From Bacillus sp. F19 (lineage in GTDB: Bacteria; Bacillota; Bacilli; Bacillales; Bacillaceae): a stretch of 64,000 bases of DNA. The position numbers and the translations under genes were made by a program. The notes under the pieces are model-generated. The model saw only the letters and a program-made list of their open reading frames with translations, did not search any database and was not told the DNA's origin. The stretch spans positions 708,001 to 772,000 of the forward strand of contig CP085710.1 in assembly GCA_023823795.1 (NCBI GenBank), written 5' to 3'. Of this stretch, positions 10,999-27,824 are shown piece after piece. Every line of letters begins with the position of its first letter. Within the stretch, counting starts at the first letter, position 1.

Positions 10999-11187
10999 AG
11001 ATTTTATTATTTTAAAATTGAATTTTTTTAACAAAATTAAAATATCAGCAAGTCCCAATATGTGTTAAAATAAGCCTTGGAATCGACTGATTTCTATTTT
11101 TTACATACGAATTTAGGCAGGAATTGTCTAAATAATGAAGAAATAATTACAAAACACTTACAACCCTAAAATTATTGGAGGTACATT

Positions 11188-12918
11188 ATGAGTTTTGAAA
11201 AAAGCTATCAGCGCTGGAAAAGCAAAACAGATTTAGATTCAGAATTAAGACTTCTTTTATCAGATTTAGAAAATAACGATAAAGCGCGCGAGGATTGCTT
11301 TTACAAAAACTTAGAATTTGGAACAGGCGGCATGCGCGGGGAAATAGGACTTGGAATTAATCGCATGAACATATATACTGTCCGAAAAGCATCTGAAGGT
11401 CTGGCGCTTTATATTGAGTCTTTCGGCAAAGAAGCGAAAAAACGCGGAGTGGCGATTGCTTATGATTCCCGCCATAAATCACCGGAGTTTGCAATGGAAG
11501 CTGCAAAAACTCTTGCAAGCCATGGCATTCAAACATATGTCTTTGAAGAACTGCGCCCGACACCTGAGCTTTCGTTTGCTGTACGGTATCTAAACGCGTT
11601 CTCCGGCATTGTCGTCACAGCAAGCCATAATCCTCCTGAATATAACGGCTATAAAGTATACGGCGAAGACGGAGGACAATTGCCTCCTGCAGCAGCAGAT
11701 GAAGTCATCGCCAAAGTAAACGAAATTGAAGACGAACTAAGCATCCAGGTGAAGGATGAAGCAGAATTAAAAGCAGCAGGGCTTATTAAAATGATCGGAG
11801 AAGAAATTGATTCCGCTTATAATGACAAGCTTGTAACGATCTCTGTGAATCCGCAGCTATCTGAAGAAGTAGATTTGAATATTGTTTTTACTCCTCTTCA
11901 TGGTACAGCAAATAAGCCTGTTCGACGCGGCCTTGATGCACTTGGCTATAAAAATGTAACCGTTGTATCAGAGCAGGAGCTGCCTGATCCAAACTTCAGC
12001 ACAGTCAAGTCTCCAAACCCTGAGGAGCATGCAGCATTTGAGTATGCCATCCGTGACGGCAAAAAAACCAATGCGGACTTATTGATTGCAACAGATCCTG
12101 ATGCAGACCGCCTTGGAATCGCCGTGAAAAATTTAGAAGGAGAATATGTCGTTTTGACGGGCAATCAAACTGGGGCCATTCTTCTTCACTATTTATTATC
12201 CCAGAAAAAAGAAAAGGGCATCCTGCCTGCCAATGGAGTTGTTCTGAAAACCATCGTAACTTCAGAAATCGGCAGGGATGTAGCGGCGTCCTTCGGTTTA
12301 GATACAATCGATACACTGACAGGCTTTAAGTTCATCGGTGAAAAAATCAATGAATACGAGCGCACCGGTCAATATACTTTCCAATTTGGCTATGAAGAAA
12401 GCTACGGCTATTTGATTGGGGACTTTGCACGTGATAAAGATGCTGTACAAGCAGCAATCTTAGCTGTTGAAGTGGCAGCTTATTATAAAAAACAAGGCAA
12501 GACGCTTTATGAAGGTTTACTCGAAATTTTTGAGCAATACGGCTATTACCGTGAAGGACTTGAGTCATTGACACTTAAAGGGAAAGATGGAGCTGAACAG
12601 ATTCAAAGCATTTTAACTTCATTCCGCAGCAATCCTCCTCAGACGATGGGAGTTAAAAAAATTGTGACGATTGAAGATTATAAAGCAGGAACCCGCTTCA
12701 ACGCAGAAGCTAAAACGACAGAAGAGATCACGCTGCCGCCGTCTAACGTTCTTAAGTACTATTTAGAAGACGGATCATGGTTCTGCCTGCGTCCATCCGG
12801 AACGGAGCCGAAAGCGAAATTCTACTTCGGTGTAACAGGAGAAACACTTGCGGACAGCGAACAAAAGCTTGAAGCTCTTACTTCTGCCCTTATGAAAAAA
12901 GTAAACGAATTGATCTAA
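11188..12918 (+). CDS. pgcA: Alpha-phosphoglucomutase (phospho-sugar mutase)
   Basis: A 576-aa phosphohexomutase interconverting glucose 6-phosphate and glucose 1-phosphate, which feeds UDP-glucose for cell-envelope glycolipids and teichoic acid. The phosphoserine loop is [14 protein letters not shown] (about residues 143-156), the metal loop [11 protein letters not shown] (about 302-312), the sugar loop [12 protein letters not shown] (about 403) and the phosphate-binding loop [12 protein letters not shown] (about 540). Position after glpD and length match B. subtilis PgcA (YhxB). The 190-base gap upstream is AT-rich and has a TAAAAT -10-like element near 11067. A GGAGGT ribosome site precedes the ATG. 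Confidence 0.95.
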
Positions 12919-12939
12919 TAAGGAAGCTATTTTAAAAAA

Positions 12940-12980
12940 TGCAGCTGGAAAAGGTGATGGTCTTTTTCAGCTGTTTTAAT
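12940..12980 (+). terminator. Terminator of pgcA
   Basis: CAGCTGGAAAAGG pairs with the TTTTTCAGCTG arm and a TTTTAAT tail follows. Confidence 0.8.
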
Positions 12981-13309
12981 GGGAAAGAGGTTTTATCATC
13001 TCATCTGATGTCGGAAGATACACGATTGCAAATGGTTCAGCGTATACAGCGACTAAATATGCGGTTCAAGGCTTTTCAGGCTCACTGGCTCAGGAAGTGC
13101 GCGAATACGGCATTCGCGTAGGCACAATCAATCCAGGCATGGTCGATTCCTATTTCAACAATGGAGTACAGGGCGCGGAGGAGAAAAAAGACTGGCTTAA
13201 AGGAAAAGACATTGCAGACGCAGTTGTCTATATGGCAAGCGCGCCAAAGCATATGATCATTGATGAAATTGTCGTTCATCCGCTTGTACAGCAATATCCG
13301 ATTTCGTGA
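12980..13309 (+). pseudogene. 3' fragment of a short-chain dehydrogenase/reductase gene
   Basis: About 109 in-frame codons encode only the C-terminal half of a classical SDR enzyme: the catalytic-serine region FIISSDVGRYT, the YxxxK catalytic pair in YTATKYAVQGFS, and the post-catalytic GIRVGTINPGMVD. The N-terminal NAD(P)-binding half is absent: an in-frame stop and the pgcA terminator lie directly upstream, and there is no start or ribosome site. It is therefore a truncated remnant. The neighbouring terminator at 13312 may have belonged to the original gene. Confidence 0.85.
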
Positions 13310-13311
13310 AA

Positions 13312-13335
13312 TCCGCTGATTCAGCGGTTTTTTTT
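13312..13335 (+). terminator. Terminator after the SDR remnant
   Basis: CCGCTGA-TTCAGCGG stem directly followed by T8. Confidence 0.85.
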
Positions 13336-13687
13336 TACGTTAAGATATTGATGCTACTTGAAATTTTTTCTGATTTCTAATTCTAACACTAGTGCGGGAA
13401 CCCATATTCACACAGGATCAGGCCCTTTCTATAAGGATTTGACATTTGGCATTTTAGTTGCTGCTCAGATGAAGTTCAACAAACTTGAAGTTCTATAGCG
13501 TAAAATGCAGTTTTATCAGTGAAAGTAATGATTTTATCAGTTTTACCGCAAAAACATGATTAGGGAAAACATATTATCCAGCCCAATTCTCCATCTAAAG
13601 TCTGAGAAAAAATCAGTCACATTGAGAAGGCAGCAAAAGGGGAAACGCTGATATACTATCAATATAAACACTGTGAAGGAGAAAGAT
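13336..13687. other. Intergenic region upstream of yhcY
   Basis: About 350 bases without a convincing gene. A TATACT element (13652-13657) about 30 bases upstream of yhcY could be a -10 box, but no good -35 box is correctly spaced. Confidence 0.4.
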
Positions 13688-14809
13688 ATGTCCAACGATG
13701 AAAAACGCATTTTGGAACTGCAGACGCTAAAGACAATCGCTGAAACACTTAATCAGTCAAATGATCTCGAACAAATGCTTGATGACGTTCTTAAGAAGCT
13801 TCTTCACGTAACGGGACTCGAAACAGGCTGGATCTTTCTTATTGATTCAGATAAACAATATCGATTAGCTGCGGACCAGCTGCTTCCGCCTGCACTTGAA
13901 ACAGAACATAAAAAAGCAATGTGCAGAGGGGATTGCTGGTGCATCGATAAATTTGCGGACGGCCGTTTAAACAAGGCTGCAAATATCATAAACTGCAAAC
14001 GTTTAGAAGACGCGGAGCAATTTGAATGGGGCGAAACGAATGAAATTACCCATCATGCTACCGTTCCGCTTAGAACGGGGAATGAAAAAATCGGATTATT
14101 AAATGTTGCTTCTCCAAATAAAACTAATTTCTCGACCGAAGAGCTTGCCTTGCTCGAAGCTGTTGCTTTACAAATAGGGACTGCCATGAAACGGATGAAG
14201 CTTGTTGAAAACGAACAGCATCTTGCTCTAATTGCGGAGCGGAACAGGCTGGCACAGGATTTGCATGATTCCGTCAATCAGCTTCTCTTTTCAATTATGC
14301 TGACAGCAAGAGGTTCAAAGGAATTGACAGAAGATCAACAGATGAAAGAGATGCTGTCATATGTTCAAGATCTCTCACAGGAGGCTCTTTCAGAAATGAG
14401 GGCTTTAATCTGGCAGCTTAGACCTCAAGGGCTGGAAAATGGGATTGCATCAGCGCTGATGAATTACGCGAAAGTATTGGGCCTAGAGCTTGAAACGGAT
14501 ATTCAGGGTGTTCAAACTCTCCCGTGTGATGCAGAGGAAGCCTTGTGGAGAATCGGTCAGGAAGCGTTAAATAATTGTAAAAAGCATGCACAAATAAAAA
14601 CTGCTGCCATTCGCATACACCGTTCGAAAAATGAGGTAATCATGACAATTAAAGACCAGGGAGCAGGTTTTTCTTACAATGAAAAATTGCCGCTGCCTTC
14701 AATGGGGCTTCAGGGAATGAAAAATCGCGTCCAAAAATTAAACGGCACATTTCAAATAACCGCCGGAATAAATAGAGGCACGGAAATAGAAGTGAAAATA
14801 CCAATTTAA
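13688..14809 (+). CDS. yhcY: GAF-domain sensor histidine kinase (NarX/LiaS-type)
   Basis: A soluble kinase of about 373 aa. An N-terminal GAF domain (about residues 20-165) is followed by a HisKA_3 dimerisation helix with phospho-acceptor His in RNRLAQDLHDSVNQ (about 190-203), and an HATPase domain with N box GQEALNNCKKHA and G box GLQGMKNRV. The GAF domain has several cysteines (CRGDCWC, INCK), which could bind metal or a redox cofactor. The ATG at 13688 has AAGGAG six bases upstream; the GTG at 13673 lacks one. It partners YhcZ, 12 bases downstream. Confidence 0.93.
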   Translation: MSNDEKRILELQTLKTIAETLNQSNDLEQMLDDVLKKLLHVTGLETGWIFLIDSDKQYRLAADQLLPPALETEHKKAMCRGDCWCIDKFADGRLNKAANIINCKRLEDAEQFEWGETNEITHHATVPLRTGNEKIGLLNVASPNKTNFSTEELALLEAVALQIGTAMKRMKLVENEQHLALIAERNRLAQDLHDSVNQLLFSIMLTARGSKELTEDQQMKEMLSYVQDLSQEALSEMRALIWQLRPQGLENGIASALMNYAKVLGLELETDIQGVQTLPCDAEEALWRIGQEALNNCKKHAQIKTAAIRIHRSKNEVIMTIKDQGAGFSYNEKLPLPSMGLQGMKNRVQKLNGTFQITAGINRGTEIEVKIPI

Positions 14810-14821
14810 GGGGGCATGAAC

Positions 14822-16006
<1,185 letters not shown>

Positions 16007-16007
<1 letters not shown>

Positions 16008-16034
16008 AATGGAGGGGATTCCCTCCATTTTTTA
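16007..16034 (+). terminator. Terminator of azr
   Basis: AAAATGGAGGG-gatt-CCCTCCATTTTTT, a near-perfect stem with T-run. Confidence 0.92.
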
Positions 16035-16054
16035 TTTGAGCAGAGCTATTTATT

Positions 16055-16104
16055 CGATTCCATTTTCTAGCTTCTCCGCCTAACAAGTCGGTTCCGCTTT
16101 TCTA
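16055..16104. repeat. Dispersed intergenic repeat, copy C (short)
   Basis: Contains the cctaacaagtcggttccgctttt type of right-end block seen in copies A and D. It borders the 3' end of yhdB. Confidence 0.45.
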
Positions 16105-16353
16105 TGTCAAATAAGCATACTCCGCATCTTCTAACTCATGTCCTGTTTCTACTGCGTGATCGATATAGCGAAGGAGTGAATATAATTTCTTTTCGACTTC
16201 TCCGTAATTGTTTTCGAAATTGTATGCGTGCAGGAACTGCTCAATCCGTTTTGAGAGCATATCATCTTTTGTGCGCACCATCAAAATCAAAAGATTATCC
16301 CACTGTGATCGGTGAGTATAATATAAGGCTTTGTCGTAATCGACTGTCTCCAC
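16102..16353 (-). CDS. yhdB: YhdB-family conserved hypothetical protein
   Basis: An 83-aa protein beginning VETVDYDKALYYTHRSQWD, which aligns with the remembered start of B. subtilis YhdB. The GTG at 16353 has GGGAGG seven bases upstream. The longer open frame to 16440 would add 29 residues without a ribosome site and is rejected. The protein is soluble and charged, with no known domain. It is convergent with azr, keeping the yhdA-yhdB neighbourhood of B. subtilis. Function unknown. Confidence 0.85.
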   Translation of the reverse strand: METVDYDKALYYTHRSQWDNLLILMVRTKDDMLSKRIEQFLHAYNFENNYGEVEKKLYSLLRYIDHAVETGHELEDAEYAYLT

Positions 16354-16545
16354 AAACATTCCTCCCTTTAAGGAGATATGTTTATTTTGTGTGAAACGGG
16401 CAATGATTTTCTGTGTAAAAGTTGGAGGACCTTTGCTCATCAGCTTGGAAGTGTTTCCCCGGGATAATTGTTCTGTAAGCGGCTCATAAACATCTTTGTT
16501 CAGGAGAAGAATAATGATTAATCACCTTATTAGGAAGTGTAAAGA

Positions 16546-17250
16546 ATGGATTTTTTTCATGGTCAGGAAACTCTTACATCCATTCAATGGATTCTGAGAG
16601 CAGTTTTTGCTTTTTTCTTTTTAGCCTTATCCGCTAAAGTCATGGGCCAGAGATCGATTGCCCAGCTGCGGCTCCTTGATTTCGTGATTGCACTCATTAT
16701 TGGCAATATCATGGCTCATCCGCTTTCTGATGAAGGACTTGGACTAAAAGGTTCAACAATCACGATGACCGTTTTAATTATTTTGTATGCAGCGGGCGTA
16801 TTTATCAGTCTAAAGTGGCATGCGTTTCGCATATTTCTTGATCCACCCGCTTTTCCTTTAATCACAAATGGCAAGATCTTTTATAAAAACTTGAAAAAAG
16901 CAAGATTAACCATTGAAGATTTGCTTTCGGAGCTTAGGAAACAGCAGATTGAAGATCCTGAAAAAGTTGCCGCAGCCCTTTTCGAATCAGACGGCAGGAT
17001 TTCCTGTTTTTTAAAAGCGGATCATCAAACCGTTACGAATCTTGATCTGAATTTAGCCCCGGCTCCTTTCGATCTACCTGCAACCATCATCAGAGAAGGC
17101 AGCATAAATAAGCAAGAACTTCAGCGTTTTGGGAAGGATGAAGAATGGCTGGTCACTGAACTTAAAACCGTTCACCAAAAAAAAGTGAATGAAATTCTCC
17201 TTGCCATTATGGATCAGAAGGGCAGTCTGAGGGTGTTTCTATATTCATAA
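16546..17250 (+). CDS. DUF421-family membrane protein (YetF/YrbG type)
   Basis: A 234-aa protein with three N-terminal transmembrane helices (about residues 15-33, 45-62, 70-90) followed by a soluble DUF421 region; the segment AKVMGQRSIAQLRLLDFVIALIIGN is the family hallmark. Paralogues are numerous in Bacillus and some have spore-related expression, but the biochemical role is not established. It stands alone between yhdB (divergent) and the catabolic island. Confidence 0.85.
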   Translation: MDFFHGQETLTSIQWILRAVFAFFFLALSAKVMGQRSIAQLRLLDFVIALIIGNIMAHPLSDEGLGLKGSTITMTVLIILYAAGVFISLKWHAFRIFLDPPAFPLITNGKIFYKNLKKARLTIEDLLSELRKQQIEDPEKVAAALFESDGRISCFLKADHQTVTNLDLNLAPAPFDLPATIIREGSINKQELQRFGKDEEWLVTELKTVHQKKVNEILLAIMDQKGSLRVFLYS

Positions 17251-17331
17251 TGTCTCCTTTAAAAAACTTTAAATGAAATACAAAATTTTTAAAAAAATGG
17301 ACATACCAATAAAAATCCGGTTTTACTAATA

Positions 17332-17351
17332 ATATGTAACCGGTTACATAT
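17332..17351. promoter_or_regulatory. Perfect 20-bp palindrome, likely LacI-type operator
   Basis: ATATGTAACCGGTTACATAT is an exact inverted repeat with the central CG typical of LacI/GalR operators. It lies 42 bases upstream of the first gene of the catabolic island, in the promoter zone, and the island encodes a LacI-family regulator (25648). I infer that this protein binds here. Confidence 0.8.
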
Positions 17352-17392
17352 ATTTGGTAGTGCATAAAAAATTGAATTTCAAGGGGGATGGC

Positions 17393-18748
17393 ATGAGCAA
17401 AGAAATCCGGATTTTGTCACCATGCGGCATGCTTGGATACGGTTTTCCGCTTGAGAGCTTTCAGAATGGCATGAAAAAGAAGCCTCATGCGATTGTTGTG
17501 GATGCCGGTTCTACAGATGCAGGACCGCATAAATTGGGGGCAGGTGTCGGCATCGTTTCAAAAAGGGCTGCGAAAAAAGATCTGAAGATCCTCATTTCTG
17601 CTGCTTTGGACAATCACATTCCTCTTATCGTCGGTTCAGCGGGAGGAGCTGGTGCAAAACCTCATGTTGAATGGACATTGGATATAATGGATGAAGTCCT
17701 GTCAAATAAGAAAACCAGGCCTAAAGTTGGTGTCATTTGGGCGGATTTTGATAAATCGTACATCAGTCATGCCCTTAATGAGGGGAGAATGGAGAAAATG
17801 AGTCCGAATGTGCCCGATTTAACTCATCTTTCTTTAACTGAAACTCATTCAATTGTTGCCCAGATGGGACATGAACCCATTTTAGAAGCGCTTCATCAGG
17901 AGTGTGATCTTATCATTTGCGGGAGAGCGTTTGATCCATCTCCGTTTGCGGCTGTTGGCATTTTTCACGGCATGGATGCAGGCCTTTCTTATCACTTAGG
18001 AAAAATATTAGAATGCGGTGCCTTATGCGCTGAACCTGGAACGACGAAGGATTGTATTCTCGGTACAGTTAAAGAAAGCTCGTTTACTGTTCAGGCTTTA
18101 AATCCAATCAGAAAATGCAGTACAACAAGCGTGGCAGCTCATACCTTTTATGAAAAAGATCATCCTTATCTACTCCATGGTCCGGGATTTTTATTGGATT
18201 TATCTCAGTGTGAGTTTAAAAATGCAGGCGAGGATTTAATTGAAGTATCAGGCAGTAAATATGTTCCTTCAAAGGATTACCGTGTGAAGCTTGAAGGAGC
18301 GAGAGTGAAAGCATACAGAACATTTGTCCTTGCAGGGGTTCGTGATCCGGTTTTACTTAAAAATATCGAAAGAATTGAAGCGTCTGTAAAAGAAGAAGTA
18401 ATGAGCCATTATAGGGATATCCCTGAACATACTTATCAAATCAACTTTTACCACTATGGAAAAAATGCCGTATTAGGAGAAAGTGAGAGCGAACCCTTTT
18501 CAGGTCATGAAATTGGTCTTGTATTTGAGGTTGTCGCAGATACTCAAGAAGCAGCAAGCAGCATATGTGCAACGCTGCGCTCCACTTTTTTGCACTACGG
18601 CTATGAAGGAAGAAAGTCGACAGCCGGGAATCTGGCCTTTCCTTTTGCTCCAAGCGATATTGAGTTTGGACCTGTATATGAGTTCTCAATCTATCATCTT
18701 ATGAAACTGAATAAAGGTGAGATGCCGTTTCAATTGGAGGTTCTATGA
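17393..18748 (+). CDS. AtuA-like (DUF1446) family protein
   Basis: A 451-aa soluble protein related to the DUF1446/AtuA family. Glycine-rich segments typical of it include VVDAGSTDAGPHKLGAG and VGSAGGAGAKPHVEW. AtuA itself was linked genetically to acyclic terpene use, but the reaction of the family is not known. The ATG at 17393 has AAGGGGG five bases upstream; the TTG at 17354 has none. The stop overlaps the start of the DUF4387 gene by four bases (ATGA), so the two are translationally coupled and may form a complex. First gene of the island operon. Confidence 0.82.
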   Translation: MSKEIRILSPCGMLGYGFPLESFQNGMKKKPHAIVVDAGSTDAGPHKLGAGVGIVSKRAAKKDLKILISAALDNHIPLIVGSAGGAGAKPHVEWTLDIMDEVLSNKKTRPKVGVIWADFDKSYISHALNEGRMEKMSPNVPDLTHLSLTETHSIVAQMGHEPILEALHQECDLIICGRAFDPSPFAAVGIFHGMDAGLSYHLGKILECGALCAEPGTTKDCILGTVKESSFTVQALNPIRKCSTTSVAAHTFYEKDHPYLLHGPGFLLDLSQCEFKNAGEDLIEVSGSKYVPSKDYRVKLEGARVKAYRTFVLAGVRDPVLLKNIERIEASVKEEVMSHYRDIPEHTYQINFYHYGKNAVLGESESEPFSGHEIGLVFEVVADTQEAASSICATLRSTFLHYGYEGRKSTAGNLAFPFAPSDIEFGPVYEFSIYHLMKLNKGEMPFQLEVL

Positions 18749-19056
18749 CAACTTTAGGAGAATACTCAAAGGTGCTTAGAAGCAAAAACTCCGGTCCATT
18801 TGAAATCACGCTGGATGTTTTATTTTGCAAAAGCGATGATTATTTTCATGTGAAGCATTCAAACAAAATCACCGGGGACGCTATTTGCAGGCTCTATCGT
18901 CTTAAAGCGGAGGAGCTGAAGCATATCGTTTTTTTTGATCAGGCGCTTGGATTCAAGATTACCTTTTTCAGAAGCCATTCGTCCGGATCTGTGTTTGACC
19001 GCGATGTGTATGGTGCGCAGCAGCATGCCCCATTAATGAATCTTGAAATAGATTAG
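18745..19056 (+). CDS. DUF4387-family protein
   Basis: A 103-aa soluble protein of the DUF4387 type, a family that as I recall sits next to AtuA/DUF1446 genes, sometimes fused to them. Its start overlaps the preceding stop by four bases. There is no visible catalytic motif; conserved-looking segments are RSKNSGPFEITLDVLF and FDRDVYGAQQHAPL. It probably acts as the small subunit of the AtuA-like protein, which is inferred from coupling only. Confidence 0.78.
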   Translation: MTTLGEYSKVLRSKNSGPFEITLDVLFCKSDDYFHVKHSNKITGDAICRLYRLKAEELKHIVFFDQALGFKITFFRSHSSGSVFDRDVYGAQQHAPLMNLEID

Positions 19057-19067
19057 GAGATTTGACT

Positions 19068-19970
19068 ATGAATAAAATAGCGGTCATTGGCAGTTTAAAT
19101 ATGGACCTGGTTGCCGTAACAGATATTTCTCCTAAAATGGGAGAAACCGTAATAGGGAAGGATTTTCATATGTTTCCCGGCGGAAAGGGAGCCAATCAGG
19201 CAACCGCAGCTGCTAGGCTCGGCGGCTCAGTCAAGCTTTTTGGAACGCTTGGAGACGATCAGCACGGAAAGTTTCTGCTTCATCAATTAGAAAACAATAA
19301 GGTAGATGGATCAAGCATTCAAATGCGGCGCGATGCACCGACCGGCTGCGCAATAATTGAAATCTGCGAGGCTCAAAACCGGATCATCGTTGTCCCGGGT
19401 GCAAATGCAAAAACGGATGAAGCTTATTTGCAGAAAAAAATAGATGATCTTTTAGAAGCTGATGTCATCTTAATTTCAATGGAGATTCCGATGCAGCCGA
19501 TAGAATACATCATCAAAGAGCTTGCCGATCACGGAAAAATCATTATTCTGAATCCTGCCCCGGCTGTTCCATTATCTGATGAGATAATCAGCCTTTGCAC
19601 ATACTTGATTCCAAATGAACATGAAGCAAAAATTATTTTTAACAGCAAGTATGAAGAAGCTGAGGCTTTGAAAAAGTATCCAAATAAGCTCCTAATTACA
19701 AAAGGAGAACAAGGCGTCACCTGCTTCAATGGACAGGAAATGGAAACTGTCCAGGCCATCAAAGTAAATCCAGTTGATTCAACAGGTGCAGGTGATACGT
19801 TTGCAGGTGCATTTTCTTACGCGATTTCAGAGGAAAAGCCTCTAAAAGAATGTATTCAATTTGCGGTGATCGCTGCAGGCTTAAGCGTTGAAAAACGAGG
19901 GGCGCAGAGCGGGATGCCGACCGCAGCAGAAGTAAAAGAATATTGCAGCAGGGCTGCTGATGATGATTAA
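19068..19970 (+). CDS. rbsK: PfkB-family carbohydrate kinase, ribokinase-like
   Basis: A 300-aa PfkB kinase resembling ribokinase: N-terminal sugar-binding GSLNMDLV and the signature FPGGKGANQATAAARLGG (about residues 36-53), and the C-terminal catalytic DSTGAGDTFAGAF with the base aspartate. It should phosphorylate a released pentose such as ribose. The ATG at 19068 has AGGAGA seven bases upstream, better than the TTG at 19062. It overlaps the downstream permease start by about 11 bases. The symbol is given for the family resemblance; another sugar is possible. Confidence 0.85.
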   Translation: MNKIAVIGSLNMDLVAVTDISPKMGETVIGKDFHMFPGGKGANQATAAARLGGSVKLFGTLGDDQHGKFLLHQLENNKVDGSSIQMRRDAPTGCAIIEICEAQNRIIVVPGANAKTDEAYLQKKIDDLLEADVILISMEIPMQPIEYIIKELADHGKIIILNPAPAVPLSDEIISLCTYLIPNEHEAKIIFNSKYEEAEALKKYPNKLLITKGEQGVTCFNGQEMETVQAIKVNPVDSTGAGDTFAGAFSYAISEEKPLKECIQFAVIAAGLSVEKRGAQSGMPTAAEVKEYCSRAADDD

Positions 19971-20862
19971 ACAAAAATTAGCGCTCATGCGCAAAGACTG
20001 GGTATTATACCTCATGATTTTCCCTGCCCTCCTGTACTTTGCTGTCTTCCATATTGTGCCTTTGATCGGCATGAAGCTTGCGTTTCAGGATTACAGGATT
20101 ATTGGTGACAATGTGTGGGTTGGCATGAAGCATTTTAATGTCCTGTTTGATTCACCGGCGTTTTTCTCCGTGCTGAAAAATACGATCATCATCAGTACGA
20201 TGAAAATCATTTTTGTCTTTCCAATTCCCATTATTCTTTCTCTTCTCATCAACGAGGTGAGAAACATGCCTTACCGGAAATATGTTCAGTCGATTGTTTA
20301 TTTGCCTCATTTCCTGTCGTGGGTTGTCATAGCAGGGATTTGGATCAGTCTGCTGAGCCCTGTAGACGGCGGAGTGAACGTAATCAGGAATTTCTTTCAG
20401 CTGCCTTCGCTTGACTACATGACAAGCAAGGATCAAATACGCTGGGTGCTCGTCTTTTCTGAAATGTGGAGAAGCGCCGGCTGGGACTCGATTATCTATT
20501 TAGCGGCGATAATGAAAATCAGTCCTTCCCTGTATGAAGCGGCACGCATGGATGGAGCATCTGGCCTGCAGCAAATGAGGTATATTACGCTGCCTGAAAT
20601 GAGCAATACGATCATTACGGTCTTTATTCTGAATTTAGGTTTCTTTATGAATGCAGGCTTTGATCAGGTATTTAACTTTATGAATGATTCCGTTATCAGC
20701 GTTGTCGATATTCTGGACACATATGTATACAGAATCGGAATTCTGAACGGTCAGTATGCTTACGCTACAGCAGCGAGTCTCTTCAAAGGCGTAATTGGGG
20801 TCGTTCTTATTTTCGGCACTCATTTCCTTGCAAAACGGCTGACCGGGAAAGGGGTATGGTGA
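19960..20862 (+). CDS. CUT1 ABC sugar transporter permease, LplB type
   Basis: A 300-aa inner-membrane permease with six helices. The EAA loop is YEAARMDGASGLQQMRYITLPEM (about residues 191-213), where an ATPase docks. The segment MIFPALLYFAVFHIVPLIGMKLAFQDY is typical of the LplB/YtcP class of oligosaccharide importers. The start overlaps the kinase gene. It forms a pair with the next permease. No ATPase gene is in the island; in Bacillus such importers commonly borrow the shared ATPase MsmX. Confidence 0.9.
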   Translation: MMIKQKLALMRKDWVLYLMIFPALLYFAVFHIVPLIGMKLAFQDYRIIGDNVWVGMKHFNVLFDSPAFFSVLKNTIIISTMKIIFVFPIPIILSLLINEVRNMPYRKYVQSIVYLPHFLSWVVIAGIWISLLSPVDGGVNVIRNFFQLPSLDYMTSKDQIRWVLVFSEMWRSAGWDSIIYLAAIMKISPSLYEAARMDGASGLQQMRYITLPEMSNTIITVFILNLGFFMNAGFDQVFNFMNDSVISVVDILDTYVYRIGILNGQYAYATAASLFKGVIGVVLIFGTHFLAKRLTGKGVW

Positions 20863-20871
20863 GGAATTCCT

Positions 20872-21750
20872 ATGAAAACATTGAAACTGTCTAAAATCCT
20901 GCTTTACTCAGTCTTATTTTTAATAACGCTTACAATGATTATTCCAATTGTGAATTTGCTTGCCATGTCTCTTACAGCACCTGAGAATGCTCACAAAATG
21001 ACGGGGCTTTCTCTGATTCCGAAAGGATTTTCGCTGATTAATTATCAAATTCTTCTGTCCAATCCGCTTATCGTGAAAAGTTTGTTCAATTCAATTTTCA
21101 TTACTGTTTCGGGTACTTTGCTGAATCTTCTTCTTACTGCACTGGCAGCCTATGTTTTAACAAGAAAAAGGCTTGCCGGCAGAAAGTTTTTTATGGTCAT
21201 CCTGATTTTGATCATGGTTTTTGAGCCGGGCTTAATACCTGAATATTTAGTTGTAAAGGATCTTGGACTGCTTGATTCCTATTTATCTCTTATTCTCTAT
21301 AAAGCCATCAATGTCTATTACTTGTTTATTATGATGCGATTTTTTGAAGATGTGCCCGAAAGCATACTCGAAGCAGCGAGAATCGACGGAGCAGGTCACA
21401 TGAATATATTTTTCAGAATTATGCTGCCGCTGTCAAAGCCGGCACTTGCAACGCTGGGCTTATTTTACGCCGTCTTTCATTGGAACGAATTTTTCAGAGC
21501 GTCCATTTATCTTACGGACCCGGGAAAATGGCCTCTGCAGCTTGTTCTCAGGCAATTCGTTGTTGAACGGGATAATGCTTCATTAGTCGGAGTACAGACC
21601 CTTTTAGAGTACAAAAGTGTGGCCAATCTTGATTTTGGCTCGCTGCAGGCAGGTACGATTATGCTTGCCATAGTACCCCTCTTAATCATGTATCCCTTCA
21701 TTCTGAAGTTTTATGCAAAGGGTGCATTAGAGGGTGGAGTAAAGGATTAG
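20872..21750 (+). CDS. CUT1 ABC sugar transporter permease, LplC/YtcP type
   Basis: A 292-aa second permease with six helices. Its EAA loop reads LEAARIDGAGHMNIFFRIMLPLSKPAL (about residues 165-191), the standard MalG-like ATPase contact. The C-terminus ends with YPFILKFYAKGALEGGVKD, the usual ending of this subfamily. It lies ten bases after the first permease and 33 bases before the solute-binding lipoprotein; the three genes make one importer. Confidence 0.92.
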   Translation: MKTLKLSKILLYSVLFLITLTMIIPIVNLLAMSLTAPENAHKMTGLSLIPKGFSLINYQILLSNPLIVKSLFNSIFITVSGTLLNLLLTALAAYVLTRKRLAGRKFFMVILILIMVFEPGLIPEYLVVKDLGLLDSYLSLILYKAINVYYLFIMMRFFEDVPESILEAARIDGAGHMNIFFRIMLPLSKPALATLGLFYAVFHWNEFFRASIYLTDPGKWPLQLVLRQFVVERDNASLVGVQTLLEYKSVANLDFGSLQAGTIMLAIVPLLIMYPFILKFYAKGALEGGVKD

Positions 21751-21783
21751 AAAGGCAAATTCATGATATAAAGGAGAATGGCA

Positions 21784-23241
21784 ATGAAGAAACTTTTGCT
21801 GATTATGCTTGCAGGTCTATTTGCATTTGCTGCAGGCTGCTCGGAAAAAACAGAAACGGCAGAGAAAAACGAGGATGGTTCTACTGTAATCCGCATAGTC
21901 ATGAAGGATGAAAATCCGTCGAATCCTGTTTCAGCTGCTTATTTTGAAGCGCTGGAAAAAGGATTAAAGAACGATGAGAATCTGAATGTGAAATTTGAGC
22001 TTGTAGAAATGCCACAGGGAAACTATGCAGAAAAACTGAATTTGCTTCTGCTGAGCGGTGATATTCCGGACATGATTTATTTCCAGGGGGGAGATCAGCA
22101 GATTGCAGATCAAGATTTGCTGGAAGATTTAACGCCTCATATCGAAAAATCGAAGTATTTGAAGGACAGTCTTGAGCCGTGGAACGAAAAGAGACTTGAA
22201 AATTATCCGTACTTATTGTGGGTGAAGCCTCTTTCTCAGAAGACGCCAGTGATCAGAGGCGATTGGTTTGAAAAAATGAAATCGTCCAAAGTGCTAGCTG
22301 CCGATCCTACGATTGATAACTACTATAATTTCTTTAAAGAATTAAAAACGAACCCTCCAGGCGGAGCAGGAAAACCTTCGTATGCTTTTACGGCTGCTGG
22401 AGATCTCGAGGAACTGAATGCCATTTTCAACATGTCGTTTGGCATTACCTCTTCATGGCTGAACAGCGGCGGGCAATTTGAGCATTACAAAGTATCGAAA
22501 CAGGAGAAGGAGAAGCTTGCATTCTATCAAAAGTTATACAAAGAAGGTCTCCTTGATCCAGGCTATATCACGAAAGAATGGGATACAAAAGAAAAAGCCT
22601 TTTATGATGGGGAGGCTGGCGTGATTGTCGGTACCGCGGGCAAAGTCATTGATATCTACAATGGGAAAATGATGCAGACTAATGGCGAAAATACCGGGGT
22701 GAAGGTATTGCCGCCTGCTAAAGGGGAAGGCCAGGGATTTGGCGCTGCAGATGTCACAAAAGAAGCAAGAGGAGTAGCGATATCCTCACAATCAGAAAAG
22801 AAGGAGCTTGCATTTAAAATTCTAGATTACCTGGCAAGCCCTAAAGGACAAATGATTGACCGCCTTGGTTTTGAAGGGGAGCACTATGTGGTAACTGACG
22901 GAAAAATAGATCTTACAAACACGTATTATGAACAATGGTTTGCGAGATTCTGGGAGCCATCTGAATTTAAACCCGAAATGCCGCTTGAAAAGCCGCTGCT
23001 TGGAGAAGCGGCTGAGGAATCTTTAAATATGGTCAATGAATTCTACAAGGAAGATAACCTCTTTATTTTGCCTGAGGAATATATCGCAAATTGGGATGCA
23101 ATGGAGAACCTATATAAAGAATATGCAACTGACATCATCACGGGAAAGCGTCCGCTTGAGGACTTTGATGCATTCGTAAAAGAATGGAATGCTGCAGGAG
23201 GAAAAGAGATTACAGAATATGCAAACAAGCAATTGAAATAG
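21784..23241 (+). CDS. ABC extracellular solute-binding lipoprotein
   Basis: A 485-aa substrate-binding protein. The signal peptide ends in the lipobox FAAGC (Cys about residue 19), so it is tethered to the outer face of the membrane. Size and layout match the LplA/YtcQ-like cluster of CUT1 binding proteins, which usually take oligosaccharides or glycosides rather than free sugars. The ATG at 21784 has AAGGAG seven bases upstream; the ATG at 21778 is too close to it. Ligand unknown. A hairpin follows, so this may end the first transcription unit. Confidence 0.9.
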   Translation: MKKLLLIMLAGLFAFAAGCSEKTETAEKNEDGSTVIRIVMKDENPSNPVSAAYFEALEKGLKNDENLNVKFELVEMPQGNYAEKLNLLLLSGDIPDMIYFQGGDQQIADQDLLEDLTPHIEKSKYLKDSLEPWNEKRLENYPYLLWVKPLSQKTPVIRGDWFEKMKSSKVLAADPTIDNYYNFFKELKTNPPGGAGKPSYAFTAAGDLEELNAIFNMSFGITSSWLNSGGQFEHYKVSKQEKEKLAFYQKLYKEGLLDPGYITKEWDTKEKAFYDGEAGVIVGTAGKVIDIYNGKMMQTNGENTGVKVLPPAKGEGQGFGAADVTKEARGVAISSQSEKKELAFKILDYLASPKGQMIDRLGFEGEHYVVTDGKIDLTNTYYEQWFARFWEPSEFKPEMPLEKPLLGEAAEESLNMVNEFYKEDNLFILPEEYIANWDAMENLYKEYATDIITGKRPLEDFDAFVKEWNAAGGKEITEYANKQLK

Positions 23242-23281
23242 AAAAAGAGAGAGATTCTGAATTCGGGATCTCTCTTTTAAA
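23242..23281 (+). terminator. Hairpin after the solute-binding gene
   Basis: AGAGAGAT ... ATCTCTCT with a TTTTAA tail. It probably attenuates or ends the upstream operon. Confidence 0.7.
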
Positions 23282-23308
23282 ATATAGGAGAATAAAGTTT
23301 GGCTCATC

Positions 23309-23430
23309 GATGGCGCGCGGAATCGCCCAACTCCTCGGCCAGAACAAATCCTCAGGAAAAGTCAAACTCGGACTTTTCTGCCGGATTCTTATCTGTCTGC
23401 CTGCGCTAAACGGGCGATTCCGTTTTTCCT
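23309..23430. repeat. Dispersed palindromic intergenic repeat, copy D (most complete)
   Basis: About 120 bp containing all blocks: gcggaatcgcccaactcctc, aaaagtcaaactcggactttt (itself an imperfect inverted repeat), cttatctgtctgcctgcgct and aaacgggcgattccgttttt; the outer gcggaatcgccc and gggcgattccg arms pair. It separates the importer genes from the first glycohydrolase gene. Confidence 0.75.
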
Positions 23431-23524
23431 ATAAAAAACATAGAATGATAGCCTATTCCCAGACGTAAGTTAGAAAGAACAGCAGGAATTACAGCGAAAC
23501 TGAAATGGGAGAGGGGAATGGCGG

Positions 23525-25627
23525 TTGATTCCTGGAGATTATCTTGAGCGTGTGTATGTAGGGTTTCTTGGAATGAATATTGGAATAAGGCTCGGAGCGC
23601 CGGTTGAGCCTTTGGAATGGACATTTGAGAGAATCGAAGATGTGTATGGTGATATAAAAGGATATCTTAAAGAATATAACACCTTTTCTGCCGATGATGA
23701 TGCGAACGGACCAGCTTTTTTTATCAGGGCTCTATATGACGATGCAGCTGACCGTGAGCTGACGGCCGAAGATGTCGGACGCGCATGGCTGAACTACACC
23801 CGCCAAGGGATCGGGATGTTCTGGTGGGGAGGAGAAGGGATCAGCACGGAGCATACGGCATATCTGAATTTGCAGAGAGGAATTCTGCCTCCTCAATCAG
23901 GATCTGCAGATCAAAATGGTTTAACGCTTGCGGAACAGATCGGCGGGCAAATTTTTGTCGATACTTGGGGGCTGCTTTTTCCGGGAGACAGCGAAAAAGC
24001 GGCTGATTATGCAGCCAAGGCGGCAAGTGTCTCGCACGACAAGAATGGTATATACGGTGCGAGATTTATTGCTGCATGTATTGCGGAGGCCTTTCATGCA
24101 GAGAGTATCCCGGAAATCATTTCAAATGCTTTAAAAACCATTCCGTCTGACAGCACCTACGCCAAAGTCGTTAACGAAGTAATTGATTTTCATTGGGAGC
24201 ATCCCGAAGACTTCAGAGCCTGCAGAATGTTTTTGGAGGAGAACTGGGGGTACGATAAATATCCGGGTGTCTGTCATATTATTCCTAATGCAGGTGTTTG
24301 CATTCTTGCGCTTTTATACGGAAATGGAAGCTTTGAAAGAACGATCGAAATCGCAGCCATGTGCGGCTGGGATACAGATTGCAATGCAGGCAAGATCGGG
24401 ACGATTGCAGGAGTATGGAATGGAATTGAAAAAATACCGAATCATTATAGGAAGCCGATCAATGATTTTATTGTACTATCAAGTGTCTCGGGATATTTGA
24501 ACATCATGGATATTCCTACATTTGCAAAAGAGCTTGCCCTGCTCGGCTATAGGGTGTCAAAGCAGCAGGCTCCAAGCGGTTTGCTGAAAAGCTTCAAAGA
24601 AGAGCACATCTATTTCGACTTTACCCTTTCAGGATCGACGCACGGCTTTCAAACAAATTTTCCTTTCAAGACATTCATCAGACACAGCAATGAAATCGGT
24701 TATGAAACAAATGGGGCCCTCGAAATATTCATTGACCGGATGATAGAAGGCGAAGCAAGCAAGGTATTCTATAAGCCTTTTCACAGAAGAAAAGACTTTA
24801 ATGATGAGAAGTATAAACCGTCGTTTGCCCCTAAAGCCTGCAGCGGCCAAAAGGTCAGCATGCAGATTTATTGTGACAAGTGGCAGGGTGAAGATTTTTT
24901 TGTCACTCCGTATGTGAGAAATACGTTTAATGAAGGGGACATCAAGCTTCAGCCTATCAGGCTGATCAATCAAGCGTGGAACGATATAGTGTTTATTATT
25001 CCAGAGACAGACGGCGCAATCATCGATGAGGTCGGAGTGATGATAGAAAGTCCATCTCCGCTTTTAAACCGGTCATTTGGGAAGCTATTTATAGATGAGT
25101 TTCAGATATCAGGAAAGGCGAATTATAAAATAGATTTCAGCAAACAGGCAATAGAGTTCCAATCTGTCACACCTTTTGCCCATCACAAGGGTGAAGCAAG
25201 CCTCGAACACAGAAAAATGAGGTGCAAGTCTGAAGATGAGTGCTCTTCTTTTACAGGGAATTATTATGCCAAAAACTATAAGTTCGCAGCCGCTGTTCAG
25301 CCGCTCAGCGGCGTTCAGCACATGATGATCCTCAGGGCGGAGGGAATCTTCCGGCATTACAAAGCCGGGTTTGACGGGCAGAATAAGGTTTCTTTGGTCT
25401 TAACCGATTTTGGCATGAAAAGACTGATAGAAGTGCCATATAAGTGGACCGCTGGGGTGGAGTACTGGTTTGAAGCAAGCTGTGAGGGAGACATGATTGA
25501 GTTTTTCATAAACGGCAAACGGATTTTCCAAGTGGAAGATGATCGCTTCAAGCGGGGAATGTTTGGATTTTCTGTCCTTGGAAAAGGCGAAGCTCTTCTG
25601 TCAGATATAGAAGTGAAGGAACTATAG
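23525..25627 (+). CDS. ADP-ribosylglycohydrolase-family enzyme with C-terminal beta-sandwich domains
   Basis: A 700-aa two-part protein. Residues about 1-340 form an all-helical ADP-ribosylglycohydrolase (ARH/DraG) fold with metal-ligand motifs FSADDDANGPAFF (about 56-68) and GWDTDCNAGKIG (about 282-293). Residues about 350-700 are beta-rich, the end resembling a LamG/DUF1080-like sandwich (WFEASCEGDMIEFFINGKR). There is no signal peptide, so it acts inside the cell on an imported substrate. The start is TTG at 23525 with GAGAGGGG eight bases upstream; the ATG at 23518 is out of frame. The family cleaves N- or O-ribosyl bonds; the actual substrate is unknown. Confidence 0.85.
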   Translation: MIPGDYLERVYVGFLGMNIGIRLGAPVEPLEWTFERIEDVYGDIKGYLKEYNTFSADDDANGPAFFIRALYDDAADRELTAEDVGRAWLNYTRQGIGMFWWGGEGISTEHTAYLNLQRGILPPQSGSADQNGLTLAEQIGGQIFVDTWGLLFPGDSEKAADYAAKAASVSHDKNGIYGARFIAACIAEAFHAESIPEIISNALKTIPSDSTYAKVVNEVIDFHWEHPEDFRACRMFLEENWGYDKYPGVCHIIPNAGVCILALLYGNGSFERTIEIAAMCGWDTDCNAGKIGTIAGVWNGIEKIPNHYRKPINDFIVLSSVSGYLNIMDIPTFAKELALLGYRVSKQQAPSGLLKSFKEEHIYFDFTLSGSTHGFQTNFPFKTFIRHSNEIGYETNGALEIFIDRMIEGEASKVFYKPFHRRKDFNDEKYKPSFAPKACSGQKVSMQIYCDKWQGEDFFVTPYVRNTFNEGDIKLQPIRLINQAWNDIVFIIPETDGAIIDEVGVMIESPSPLLNRSFGKLFIDEFQISGKANYKIDFSKQAIEFQSVTPFAHHKGEASLEHRKMRCKSEDECSSFTGNYYAKNYKFAAAVQPLSGVQHMMILRAEGIFRHYKAGFDGQNKVSLVLTDFGMKRLIEVPYKWTAGVEYWFEASCEGDMIEFFINGKRIFQVEDDRFKRGMFGFSVLGKGEALLSDIEVKEL

Positions 25628-25647
25628 GATCATCAGGGGGAAATCAC

Positions 25648-26691
25648 TTGAGGGAGAAGAAAGTAACCATTCGGGATGTGGCAAGGAAAGCGGATGTTTC
25701 AGTTGCCACCATTTCCAGATATCTGAATAAAAAAGGATATGTCAGCCATGCAACAGAAAAAAGAATTCAGTCTGTCATGGAGAATTTGAATTATAAACCA
25801 AATGAAATTGCAAGAGGTCTTGCCAGGCAAAAAACGAATACAATTGCCCTGTTTATTCCTGATCTCAGCAACCCTTTCTTTCCCAAGCTTGTTCAAGCAA
25901 TCGAAAAAGAAGCAGCCCGCAAAGGATACAAAATAATCCTGGTGCCTGCCGGTTTTAAGGAAATGACGGGTGTCTTTATGTGGGAAAGCTTTGAAAATAT
26001 GTATATTGACGGGTTTATTTTCGCTCCCTATCAGCTTAAGGAGAAATCAATTAAGCTTCTGAAGGAAAAGAAGATTCCATTTGTGATTGTTGACCGTGCA
26101 GCCAATGTAACATCCGCAAACTCAGTGGCAGTCGATCATTATACAGGTGCAAAGCTTGCAGTCTGCCACCTGTTGGATGTCGGCTGCAGAAAGATTATTC
26201 ACATAGGCGGACCGAAACAGCTCATTCCATCAAATGAGAGGCTGAGAGGTTATGCGGATAGTGTAAAGCAATTTTCCAGGGAGCACCCTGTGATTCATTA
26301 TGAAGGTGATTACAGTCTTGAAAGCGGGAGGCTGCTGACTAAGGTGGCGCTGAAGCAGCATCCTGATGCAGATGGATTTTTTCTCGGAAACGATTTAATG
26401 GCAATTGGCTGTTTGAAAATGCTGAAGACTCTTAGGAGAAAGATCCCTGAAGAGATTGCTATTGCCGGTTTTGACGGAATTGACCTCACGACCCTTGTAG
26501 AGCCCGAGATTACAACGATTGAGCAGCCTGTGTATGAAATTGGACTGGCTGCAGCAGGCAAGCTTATTCAATTAATTGAAGAGAAAACAGGAGGGAATGA
26601 GGCATTTCCGAAGCTTGCATTAAAACTTCTGGCAAGAGCCTCCACACTTGGTTTTAAGGGAAAGACCATCAGTAAAGGAGAGGGACAATGA
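25648..26691 (+). CDS. LacI/GalR-family transcriptional regulator
   Basis: A 347-aa repressor: N-terminal HTH VTIRDVARKADVSVATISRYLN (residues 5-26), hinge helix PNEIARGLARQ, then a periplasmic-binding-like effector domain starting TIALFIPDLSNPFF. The start is TTG at 25648 with CAGGGGG seven bases upstream. Its stop overlaps the next gene by four bases. It probably controls the island from the palindrome at 17332, sensing the substrate or a product of the pathway. Confidence 0.93.
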   Translation: MREKKVTIRDVARKADVSVATISRYLNKKGYVSHATEKRIQSVMENLNYKPNEIARGLARQKTNTIALFIPDLSNPFFPKLVQAIEKEAARKGYKIILVPAGFKEMTGVFMWESFENMYIDGFIFAPYQLKEKSIKLLKEKKIPFVIVDRAANVTSANSVAVDHYTGAKLAVCHLLDVGCRKIIHIGGPKQLIPSNERLRGYADSVKQFSREHPVIHYEGDYSLESGRLLTKVALKQHPDADGFFLGNDLMAIGCLKMLKTLRRKIPEEIAIAGFDGIDLTTLVEPEITTIEQPVYEIGLAAAGKLIQLIEEKTGGNEAFPKLALKLLARASTLGFKGKTISKGEGQ

Positions 26692-27824
26692 CGGAGCGGA
26701 TGCTTGAAAAAATAGAAGGTGTTCTTTATGGCGGTGCTATCGGTGATGCAATGGGTTCACCGACAGAGGGGCTGCTGCCTGAAGTAATCAGGGAGAAATT
26801 CGGTGTTGTAACATCATTTCGGGAGCCGGCAAGTGATGCGTGGAAGGAACCAGGCAACATGAGGCCTCTCGAAAAGGGAAACGGACACATAACGGATGAC
26901 ACATTAATGGTAGAGGCGCTGCTTAAGGTATATGAAAAAAAGCGAAGGCATTTAACAGCTTATGATATAGCAGAAGAACTAGTGGAGGAAATAGCTGAAA
27001 AGAAGGTCTACATTCCTGAGCTGCGGAAGGAAGCGCCTATTATTACAAGACTTTATTATCCAGAGCAGTATCTCTTTCTAAGGCACAGGCTTGCAAATGC
27101 AGATCCCCGAGAAGCGGGCATCGGCAATATGGTGAACTGCGGAGCTGCCATGTATATGAGTCCTGTCGGAATGATGAATGCAGGAGATCCTGAACGAGCC
27201 TATCACGAAGCAATTGATCTTGCCGGGGCTCATCAAACAAGCTACGGCAGGGAAGCAGCCGGTGTAATGGCAGCTGCTGTTGCTGAAGGCATGAGCGAAA
27301 ACGCGACAGTGCAAAGTATTCTAAAAGCGGCACGGACGCTCGCTAAAGACGGTACAAAGCTTGCCATTGAGGCAGCGCTGGGTGCAGCAGCTGTCCATTT
27401 GGATGTTCTCGAAGCAAGAGAGGATCTAAGACGGGCTATTGAACCTTTCGATACAGTGAAAACTTTTTCTGATCGTAAAAAGCAGGGAAAAGGAAATGCC
27501 AACACACCGAGCAGAATTCATTCCATTGAGGAATTGCCGATAGCCCTGGCTTTATTTTTGGTAGCAGGAGGAGACACGATGAAGACGATCATAGGCGGTG
27601 TGAATTACGGCCATGATTCAGATTCTATCGCAAGCATGGGCGGAGCGATCGCAGGATCATTAAATGGAAAATCCTCATTGCCTGAAGAGCTTATGAAGGA
27701 ACTTGATGCTGTTAATAAACGTTCGTTCAAAGAACTATCAAAGACAGCATATGAAACAGCCATGACTGTGATCAAGAATGACAAAGCTTATTTTGAAAAG
27801 AGGATAAACAGGATCGGCTTATAA
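26688..27824 (+). CDS. Second ADP-ribosylglycohydrolase-family enzyme
   Basis: A 378-aa single-domain ARH/DraG-fold protein. The N-terminal family motif is GVLYGGAIGDAMGSPTEG (about residues 8-25), metal-ligand residues lie in HITDDTLM (about 65-72) and in YGHDSDSIASMGGAIAGSL (about 306-324). It is clearly distinct from the 700-aa relative upstream, so the island has two glycohydrolases that may cleave successive bonds or different forms of the substrate. It overlaps the LacI-type gene by four bases (ATGA), meaning translational coupling. No signal peptide. Confidence 0.9.
   Translation: MTERMLEKIEGVLYGGAIGDAMGSPTEGLLPEVIREKFGVVTSFREPASDAWKEPGNMRPLEKGNGHITDDTLMVEALLKVYEKKRRHLTAYDIAEELVEEIAEKKVYIPELRKEAPIITRLYYPEQYLFLRHRLANADPREAGIGNMVNCGAAMYMSPVGMMNAGDPERAYHEAIDLAGAHQTSYGREAAGVMAAAVAEGMSENATVQSILKAARTLAKDGTKLAIEAALGAAAVHLDVLEAREDLRRAIEPFDTVKTFSDRKKQGKGNANTPSRIHSIEELPIALALFLVAGGDTMKTIIGGVNYGHDSDSIASMGGAIAGSLNGKSSLPEELMKELDAVNKRSFKELSKTAYETAMTVIKNDKAYFEKRINRIGL

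Follow-up and report, generated by a model that had tools for sequence, protein, structure and literature searches.

A 64,000-nucleotide stretch of the Bacillus sp. F19 genome (contig CP085710.1, positions 708,001 to 772,000; hereafter the window) carries nine consecutive genes that specify an AtuA-family protein, a DUF4387 protein, a ribokinase, the two permeases and the solute-binding lipoprotein of a CUT1-type importer, two proteins with the ADP-ribosylglycohydrolase (ARH) fold, designated ARH700 and ARH378, and a LacI-family repressor. We consider it somewhat probable that the cell uses this operon to feed on a small compound in which ribose is joined to a 2-hydroxy dicarboxylic acid of the citramalate type. 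The proposal is based on the kinship of the AtuA/DUF4387 pair with the citramalate lyase subunits CmlA and CmlB, on the putative citramalate- or citrate-type lyases that are found in related cassettes devoid of AtuA, and on retention of the sugar contacts of ribokinase. An initial annotation of the window had outlined import of a ribosyl compound, removal of ribose by two ARH hydrolases, trapping of the sugar by ribokinase, and treatment of the other part by AtuA/DUF4387. The gene content fits this outline, to which the CmlAB kinship now adds a specification of the acid half.

The AtuA and DUF4387 proteins match the two chains of PDB entries 9erq and 9evf (449 and 91.5 bits, respectively). The molecule names given to these chains at deposition are those of an AtuA-family protein, a DUF4387 protein, and subunits A and B of citramalate lyase, and the lyase label derives from these names. 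Thus, adjacent genes of the window encode homologs of both CmlA and CmlB, and cleavage of citramalate may be predicted for the pair. Given this kinship, the part of the compound other than ribose is most likely a citramalate-type hydroxy acid. The DUF4387 gene is the single match to its family in the genome. The methylaspartate cluster, in which glutamate is converted via mesaconate to citramalate, likewise holds AtuA/DUF4387: relatives with 44–47% identity follow methylaspartate ammonia-lyase in an E. coli plasmid and a Prevotella replicon, with fumarate hydratase genes situated one or two genes beyond AtuA/DUF4387, and relatives share a gene run with fumarate hydratase in Klebsiella and Neorhizobium plasmids. 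The two methylaspartate regions that were examined possess no ARH, sugar importer or kinase gene, unlike the window, in which the ARHs and ribokinase are found instead of fumarase.

In the E. coli plasmid (L097:7756-12126), AtuA/DUF4387 is located directly after methylaspartate ammonia-lyase, and the record uses the name DUF1446, which we take to be the older designation of the AtuA family. According to PMC4682846, the class I fumarase of such an E. coli cluster hydrates mesaconate to (S)-citramalate; the neighboring DUF1446 gene is listed there without a known function, and what becomes of citramalate in E. coli is left unclear. The L097 pair is probably the citramalate lyase that is missing from the E. 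coli glutamate pathway in that paper.

The ARH-linked AtuA proteins form one group on a tree of 55 rows, consisting of the window, 44 of 58 representatives, and 10 outsiders, with 9erq itself outside the tree. The group has support of 100/99, also contains the protein of L092, and does not fall in the clade of methylaspartate-cluster proteins. L092 was not counted with the ARH group when the groups were compared on the tree and at conserved positions. Relative to four citramalate-lyase-like proteins, a reference of four sequences, the ARH-linked AtuA proteins display 106 shared conserved positions and 11 that are switched; K60 and K232 of the ARH-linked clade replace Y and S of the four proteins. 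In view of the switched positions, the acid may be either citramalate itself or a malate substituted at position 2, i.e., related and not necessarily identical to that cleaved by CmlAB.

Conservation of the cassette was assessed by scoring gene content with tblastn in 80 loci, which are the best 80 of 168 AtuA relatives in species-representative genomes, with distant AtuA relatives lying outside the count. The loci are mostly from Bacillota, with one from a spirochaete (L070) and one from a Chloroflexota metagenome-assembled genome (L064), and span three phyla. DUF4387 was found in all 80, both permeases in 77, the binding protein in 74, and ARH700 in 74; the kinase was present in 60, an ARH378-type gene in 57, and LacI, at any identity, in 30. 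The families named in the initial annotation are therefore tightly linked, as AtuA, DUF4387, both permeases, the binding protein and ARH700 occur jointly in 71 of the 80 loci. Two or more ARH genes were found in 74 loci (two in 59, three in 4, and four in 11). The gene set is not due to chance, since ARH700 and at least two ARH genes are each found in 74 of the 80 closest AtuA loci. Clusters lacking the ARH genes or the kinase had been named at the outset as evidence that would count against the pathway; the ARH association held well, with ARH700 in 74 loci, and the kinase, with 60, is not universal. Among the six loci without a full ARH700, L042, L055, and L090 end at contig ends, an ARH700-ARH378 pair of the L020 genome is located on another contig (L110), and L077 has one smaller ARH instead.

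Within 398 genomes of the class, ARH700 at 60% identity or more is confined to six, exactly those in which AtuA also reaches 60% or more; four of them belong to one genus, and one AtuA copy (G418) is broken. ARH700 at this level is lacking from 12 genomes whose AtuA relatives are 31–53% identical, and AtuA is unmatched in four genomes in which ARH700 has weaker matches (33–43% identity). The genome is Metabacillus-like, and the nearest named relative of the operon is in Metabacillus idriensis (L017), in which AtuA is 89–90% identical. In single relatives (G050:C1:4923516-4924896, L112, and L015), AtuA is in two pieces or has a stop inside the match. Two other candidate functions for the operon were rejected. 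A methylaspartate/mesaconate pathway was discarded because four query proteins, methylaspartate ammonia-lyase (one), a glutamate mutase subunit (one), and fumarases (two), found no match in the 80 AtuA loci. Acyclic terpene use, which was based on the AtuA name, was discarded as there was no other terpene gene in the nine Pfam results.

Several ARH cassettes without AtuA/DUF4387 contain an HpcH/CitE-family lyase with three different activating partners: a CaiB-type CoA-transferase in rhizobia, an ADP-forming CoA ligase in one genome, and CitF with an acyl-carrier domain in one genome. By homology these sets would be citramalate- or citrate-cleaving designs, and they differ in how the acid is activated. 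The ligase set is in a Bacilli genome (L111), where importer, LacI, ribokinase, CitE/HpcH lyase and ADP-forming acyl-CoA ligase genes accompany four ARH-type genes detected by BLAST, one of which is 69% identical to ARH378 of the window. The solved structures nearest to the L111 lyase are malyl-CoA/β-methylmalyl-CoA lyase, a CitE, and a mitochondrial CitE-like protein. The CitF set (L126) is from another family of the phylum and comprises a half-length kinase, LacI, importer, CitF, and CitE fused to an acyl-carrier domain, together with four ARH-type genes, one of which is 50% identical to ARH378. The L126 CitF scored 638.8 bits compared to a cut-off of 501.45 for the citrate lyase alpha subunit.

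ARH700 also was matched by 29 plasmid records, in 20 of them over most of its length, and 14 of the 29 were inspected. Eleven of the inspected plasmids, from rhizobia, encode permeases with 47–63% identity to those of the window, a binding protein with 39–46%, an ARH378-like gene, and ARH700 with 38–46%; no AtuA match was found in these 11 loci. The CaiB-type CoA-transferase is present in seven of the 11, and in six of these seven it is accompanied by a CoA ester lyase. The best model for the rhizobial CoA-transferase was succinate-glutarate CoA-transferase, under the cut-off, and hydroxymethylglutarate CoA-transferase is among its nearest solved structures. The same pair of families, which is situated at the end of rhizobial cassettes, acts in the CoA-transferase and citramalyl-CoA lyase route of mesaconate and itaconate use. 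The rhizobial cassettes differ in that no itaconate or mesaconate gene is among the annotated neighbors, and the scores are below the RipC and CoA-transferase cut-offs. In L135, ARH700 is split and several genes are broken. Queries for the lyase, CoA-transferase, CitF, and ligase found no match in the other three inspected plasmids (Deinococcus, Enterobacter, and Rhizobium 11515TR). The Enterobacter hormaechei locus (L137) holds an ARH700 relative (33%), a LacI gene and a binding-protein gene, and is positioned between chiP and glnS on a plasmid with chromosomal-type genes. The permeases of L127 and L128 resemble those of the window (46–47% for the first and 38–41% for the second), and L127 includes genes for a PfkB kinase, a KDPG-type aldolase, a hydantoinase-like protein, amidohydrolases, and a serine dehydratase-like protein.

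In this sample, lyases of the AtuA family and of the CitE family are mutually exclusive, as no CitE-design match lies within the 80 AtuA cassettes: CitF, CitE, CoA ester lyase, and ligase queries found no match in 1.61 Mb of the 80 loci (E up to 1e-10), and the one match to the CoA-transferase is in the flank of L063. Two citramalate routes are named in PMC4682846, namely a CitDEF-type citramalate lyase and a CoA-transferase acting with citramalyl-CoA lyase. It is rather unlikely that the pathway instead serves another acid, such as citrate, malate, homocitrate, 2-alkylmalate, or an acid of the 3-hydroxy-3-methylglutarate type. Such an acid would accord with K60 and K232 in the ARH-linked AtuA proteins, with the L126 CitF score above the citrate lyase alpha cut-off, and with the resemblance of the rhizobial CoA-transferase to succinate-glutarate and hydroxymethylglutarate CoA-transferases. 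However, an aerobic soil bacterium with a citric acid cycle can use citrate and malate without a lyase reserved for them. Such a specialized enzyme would be most useful for an acid that the cycle does not handle, and citramalate or a 2-alkylmalate is therefore favored compared to citrate or malate. Moreover, three of the four designs have citramalate as the acid of their reference enzymes (CmlAB, CitDEF-type citramalate lyase, and CoA-transferase with citramalyl-CoA lyase).

The identity of the sugar was considered from the kinase. The window kinase is the single protein in its genome that exceeds the TIGR02152 ribokinase cut-off (307.6 compared to 299.65 bits), which also is exceeded by the L111 and L085 kinases. 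The sugar contacts of E. coli RbsK, which we take to be N14, D16, G42, K43, N46, E143, and D255 with letters from L144, are all kept in the 50 AtuA-locus kinases that were checked (285–330 amino acids, starting at locus positions 7000–20000, from the 60 loci with a kinase match), as well as in the L111, L132, and L136 kinases. The control protein E. coli YegV, a PfkB kinase encoded beside an ARH gene, departs from RbsK at three of the seven contacts. As the contacts are kept and some of the kinases exceed the ribokinase cut-off, ribose is the best guess for most cassettes and is proven for none. A remnant of a second ribokinase that covers model positions 123–296 only was noted elsewhere in the genome (L115; C1:2485959-2486429), where by eye it adjoins a thiolase-like gene. 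An operon that combines two pathways, a ribose or riboside module and an independent citramalate module without a single conjugate, is unlikely. It would explain why the kinase is not always present and why some rhizobial cassettes have the kinase alone or the lyase set alone. Nevertheless, the operon of the window has one importer gene set, no local source of free citramalate was seen with the four query proteins in the 80 AtuA loci, and the ARHs are retained across changes of lyase design.

Both ARH proteins exceeded the PF03747 cut-off of 26.2 bits (185.9 for ARH700 and 157 for ARH378) and are the only two matches to this family in the genome. The C-terminal ~390 residues of ARH700 matched no Pfam family and the entire protein matched no NCBIfam model. 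ARH378 possesses the motif E..TDDT..DxDS, which is present in 28 of 28 aligned rows (the window and 27 of 33 representatives). The TDDT and DxDS/T elements, the letters of which are visible in MJ1187 and DraG alignments, presumably provide the ligands for two metals. ARH700 has a variant, E..ADDD..DxDC, in 40 of 40 aligned rows (the window and 39 of 49 representatives). On a tree of ARH378 proteins, those of the window, L017, and L019 group with the L111 and L126 proteins of CitE-type cassettes, and the other 25 from AtuA cassettes group with three rhizobial proteins apart from that of the window. Branches on this tree are long, above all that of L126, and support for the L111 join is 89/97. 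It is as if the ARHs are exchangeable between cassettes with different lyases.

It appears improbable that a furanose or pentose other than ribose is involved, or that the ARH proteins are esterases or deacylases, such that ribose is not a product. The invariant ADDD and DxDC variants in ARH700 and the esterase genes in several clusters speak for this possibility; the RbsK contacts in all 50 kinases, and scores above the ribokinase cut-off for three of six kinases, speak against it. Reversal of protein or nucleic-acid ADP-ribosylation in regulation, defense, or toxin neutralization is very improbable and was rejected on genomic context and scores: although both proteins carry the ARH domain and ARH378 shares its fold family and canonical metal ligands with DraG and ARH3, an importer lies alongside in most of the 80 loci, the context of ARH378 is sugar catabolism, and its scores against the DraG (TIGR02662; 45.5 bits, cut-off 337) and Tri1 (30.5 bits, cut-off 490) equivalogs are far below threshold, with ARH700 matching neither.

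A number of observations weigh against a conjugate of ribose and a citramalate-type acid. Only co-location suggests that the sugar and the acid come from one molecule, we know of no natural ribosyl-citramalate, and a literature search for citramalate with ribofuranosyl retrieved no title or abstract with either term. ARH-fold genes occur in other transporter/kinase operons (yegU). The L084, L132, and L136 kinases are below the ribokinase cut-off, and no kinase match was found in 20 of the 80 AtuA loci, of which L090 ends early. Esterase-family genes lie inside the L067, L072, L076, L084, and L093 clusters (scanned) and the L064, L068, L071, and L091 clusters (assigned by clustering); thus, the acid may be joined otherwise, and some versions of the compound are suggested to carry an ester. 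The sixth AtuA locus without a full ARH700, L092, encodes an AtuA protein of the ARH group beside a peptide importer and has no ARH. The cassettes that lack AtuA add further difficulties. CitE-type scores are below the NCBIfam citE and RipC cut-offs, and the three designs share the HpcH/CitE family and therefore do not represent three independent lyases. The L111 and L126 permeases are just 25–31% identical to those of the window, the close kin being the ARHs and the kinase, and the import machinery of these loci may therefore serve another ligand. There was no second ligase variant in 39 relatives of genome G164 and no second CitF variant in 13 relatives of G672. Among the 11 rhizobial loci, one has the CoA-transferase without a lyase match, two have ribokinase without a lyase set, one has a kinase fragment, and one has neither. 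No citramalate-type lyase was found in L105, where an ARH700 relative (40%) has thiolase, CoA transferase, and SDR genes nearby, in the L136, L137, and L138 ARH cassettes, or in L127 and L128, which are clusters of a different kind with one weak ARH378 relative each.

In the pathway that we favor for the ribose conjugate, the CUT1 importer would take up the compound and one or both ARH-fold enzymes would hydrolyze the ribose-acid bond, either a glycoside or a 1-O-acyl ester. The fold and metal motif suggest that this hydrolysis would employ the two-metal site that grips the ribofuranose diol in this family. Ribokinase, for which the family and contacts are established, is predicted to supply ribose 5-phosphate to the pentose phosphate pathway. 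The AtuA/DUF4387 proteins, as relatives of CmlAB, may cleave a C-C bond of the freed acid; in the case of citramalate, the products would be pyruvate and acetate. LacI is predicted to act at the palindrome at 17332-17351, silencing the operon as long as neither the compound nor a product is present.

This perfect 20-bp palindrome lies 41 bases upstream of the likely AtuA start at 17393. Its core, TGTAACCGGTTACA, has one exact copy in the genome and, with up to two mismatches, 0.07 copies are expected per window. A copy with one mismatch was noted at C2:444872 near a 428-amino-acid open reading frame. The predicted operator and the LacI regulator co-occur across the 80 AtuA loci: the operator is present in 18 of the 20 loci with LacI of at least 45% identity and in five of the other 60 (L042, L051, L052, L054, and L057), with none in the remaining 55. 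In these five loci no LacI gene is within the sequence stretch examined around AtuA. The best NCBIfam match of the regulator is RbsR (233 bits, under the cut-off of 382). Other regulatory arrangements were observed beside related clusters. A LacI repressor-PfkB kinase fusion of ~650 amino acids is encoded just upstream of AtuA in L074:8012-9964, L088:7962-9914, and L089:7987-9996, which also hold a separate kinase gene; PF00356 and PF00294 were scanned in L074 only. GntR/FCD regulators identified with Pfam are beside some clusters (L028:9200-9946 and L080:18169-18903), and relatives of the L028 gene are near AtuA in 23 loci.

The features of the operon are collected in Table 1. The nine plus-strand open reading frames reported in the initial annotation were all recovered in the list for the window, extending from 17354 to 27824, as were the overlaps of 4 bases between AtuA and DUF4387, 11 between the kinase and first permease, and 4 between LacI and ARH378. 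The family assignments likewise were borne out by Pfam matches above curated cut-offs (AtuA PF07287, DUF4387 PF14330, PfkB, two BPD_transp_1, SBP_bac_1, two ADP_ribosyl_GH, and LacI), with additional NCBIfam backing for ribokinase. Position 17332, given earlier as the gene start, proved to be the first base of the palindrome. The AtuA frame opens at TTG 17354, and the start is most likely ATG 17393, which by eye is behind AAGGGGG. The two permeases and family 1 binding protein recognized by Pfam correspond to a CUT1 importer. No importer ATPase subunit is among the nine operon genes, the rest of the genome not having been searched for one, and UgpC is present in rhizobial relatives of the cassette. 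The nearest solved relatives of the binding protein are 5xs8 and the alginate-binding proteins AlgQ1 and AlgQ2; the matches are weak, and the AlgQ kinship would fit an acidic ligand and proves nothing. A gap of 283 bases separates the binding-protein and ARH700 genes, and an A/G-rich hairpin was discerned by eye directly 3′ of the former (23243-23278), which is perhaps an attenuator ahead of the ARH genes.

Table 1. Predicted features of the operon, with positions in the window.
Feature	Position	Strand	Evidence
Perfect 20-bp palindrome ATATGTAACCGGTTACATAT, predicted operator of the LacI protein of the cluster	17332..17351		Conservation and LacI linkage
AtuA-family protein, predicted lyase large subunit (CmlA relative)	17393..18748	+	PF07287 80.7 bits; PDB 9erq_A 449 bits, residues 14-453
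DUF4387 protein, predicted lyase small subunit (CmlB relative)	18745..19056	+	PF14330 116 bits; PDB 9erq_B 91.5 bits
Ribokinase	19062..19970	+	TIGR02152 307.6 bits (cut-off 299.65); sugar-contact residues as in E. coli RbsK
CUT1-type importer permease 1	19960..20862	+	PF00528
CUT1-type importer permease 2	20872..21750	+	PF00528
Solute-binding lipoprotein of importer	21778..23241	+	PF01547
ARH700, ADP-ribosylglycohydrolase-fold domain and ~390-residue C-terminal region	23525..25627	+	PF03747 185.9 bits, residues 14-306
LacI-family repressor (RbsR-like)	25648..26691	+	PF00356, PF00532
ARH378, ADP-ribosylglycohydrolase-fold enzyme, canonical metal motif	26688..27824	+	PF03747 157 bits

No description of such an operon, and no paper on PDB entry 9erq, was found in the open full-text literature, a coverage that largely excludes subscription papers, and within it the earlier statement that the combination matches no known pathway stands. 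A minor precedent is provided by E. coli yegTUV, in which transporter, ARH-family protein, and PfkB kinase genes are in a row as in the window. The yegTUV genes differ in specifying one ARH and no lyase, YegT is not an ABC importer, and YegV departs from RbsK at the contacts noted above. Taken singly, the parts of the operon are of known kinds; their combination, the substrate predicted for them, and the swapping of lyase designs are, to our knowledge, new. More broadly, it is possible, if short of probable, that ribosylated citramalate-type acids constitute an undescribed class of metabolites with ARH-fold proteins as dedicated glycosidases, and that these compounds are eaten by Bacilli, clostridia, a spirochaete, a chloroflexote represented by a metagenome-assembled genome, and rhizobia via an import-hydrolysis-ribokinase set that has been joined separately to two unrelated lyase families in at least four designs.

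Because related ARHs are accompanied by different lyase designs, the candidate substrates can be reduced to a few acids, few enough for a handful of assays to be decisive. A role for AtuA/DUF4387 as a citramalate lyase would bear on the fate of citramalate in enterobacteria that possess methylaspartate genes, which PMC4682846 does not settle. If the proposal for the operon is correct, there would be a natural nutrient still to be identified, and AtuA/DUF4387 would have a catabolic role outside glutamate fermentation, as would ARH-fold proteins outside ADP-ribosylation.

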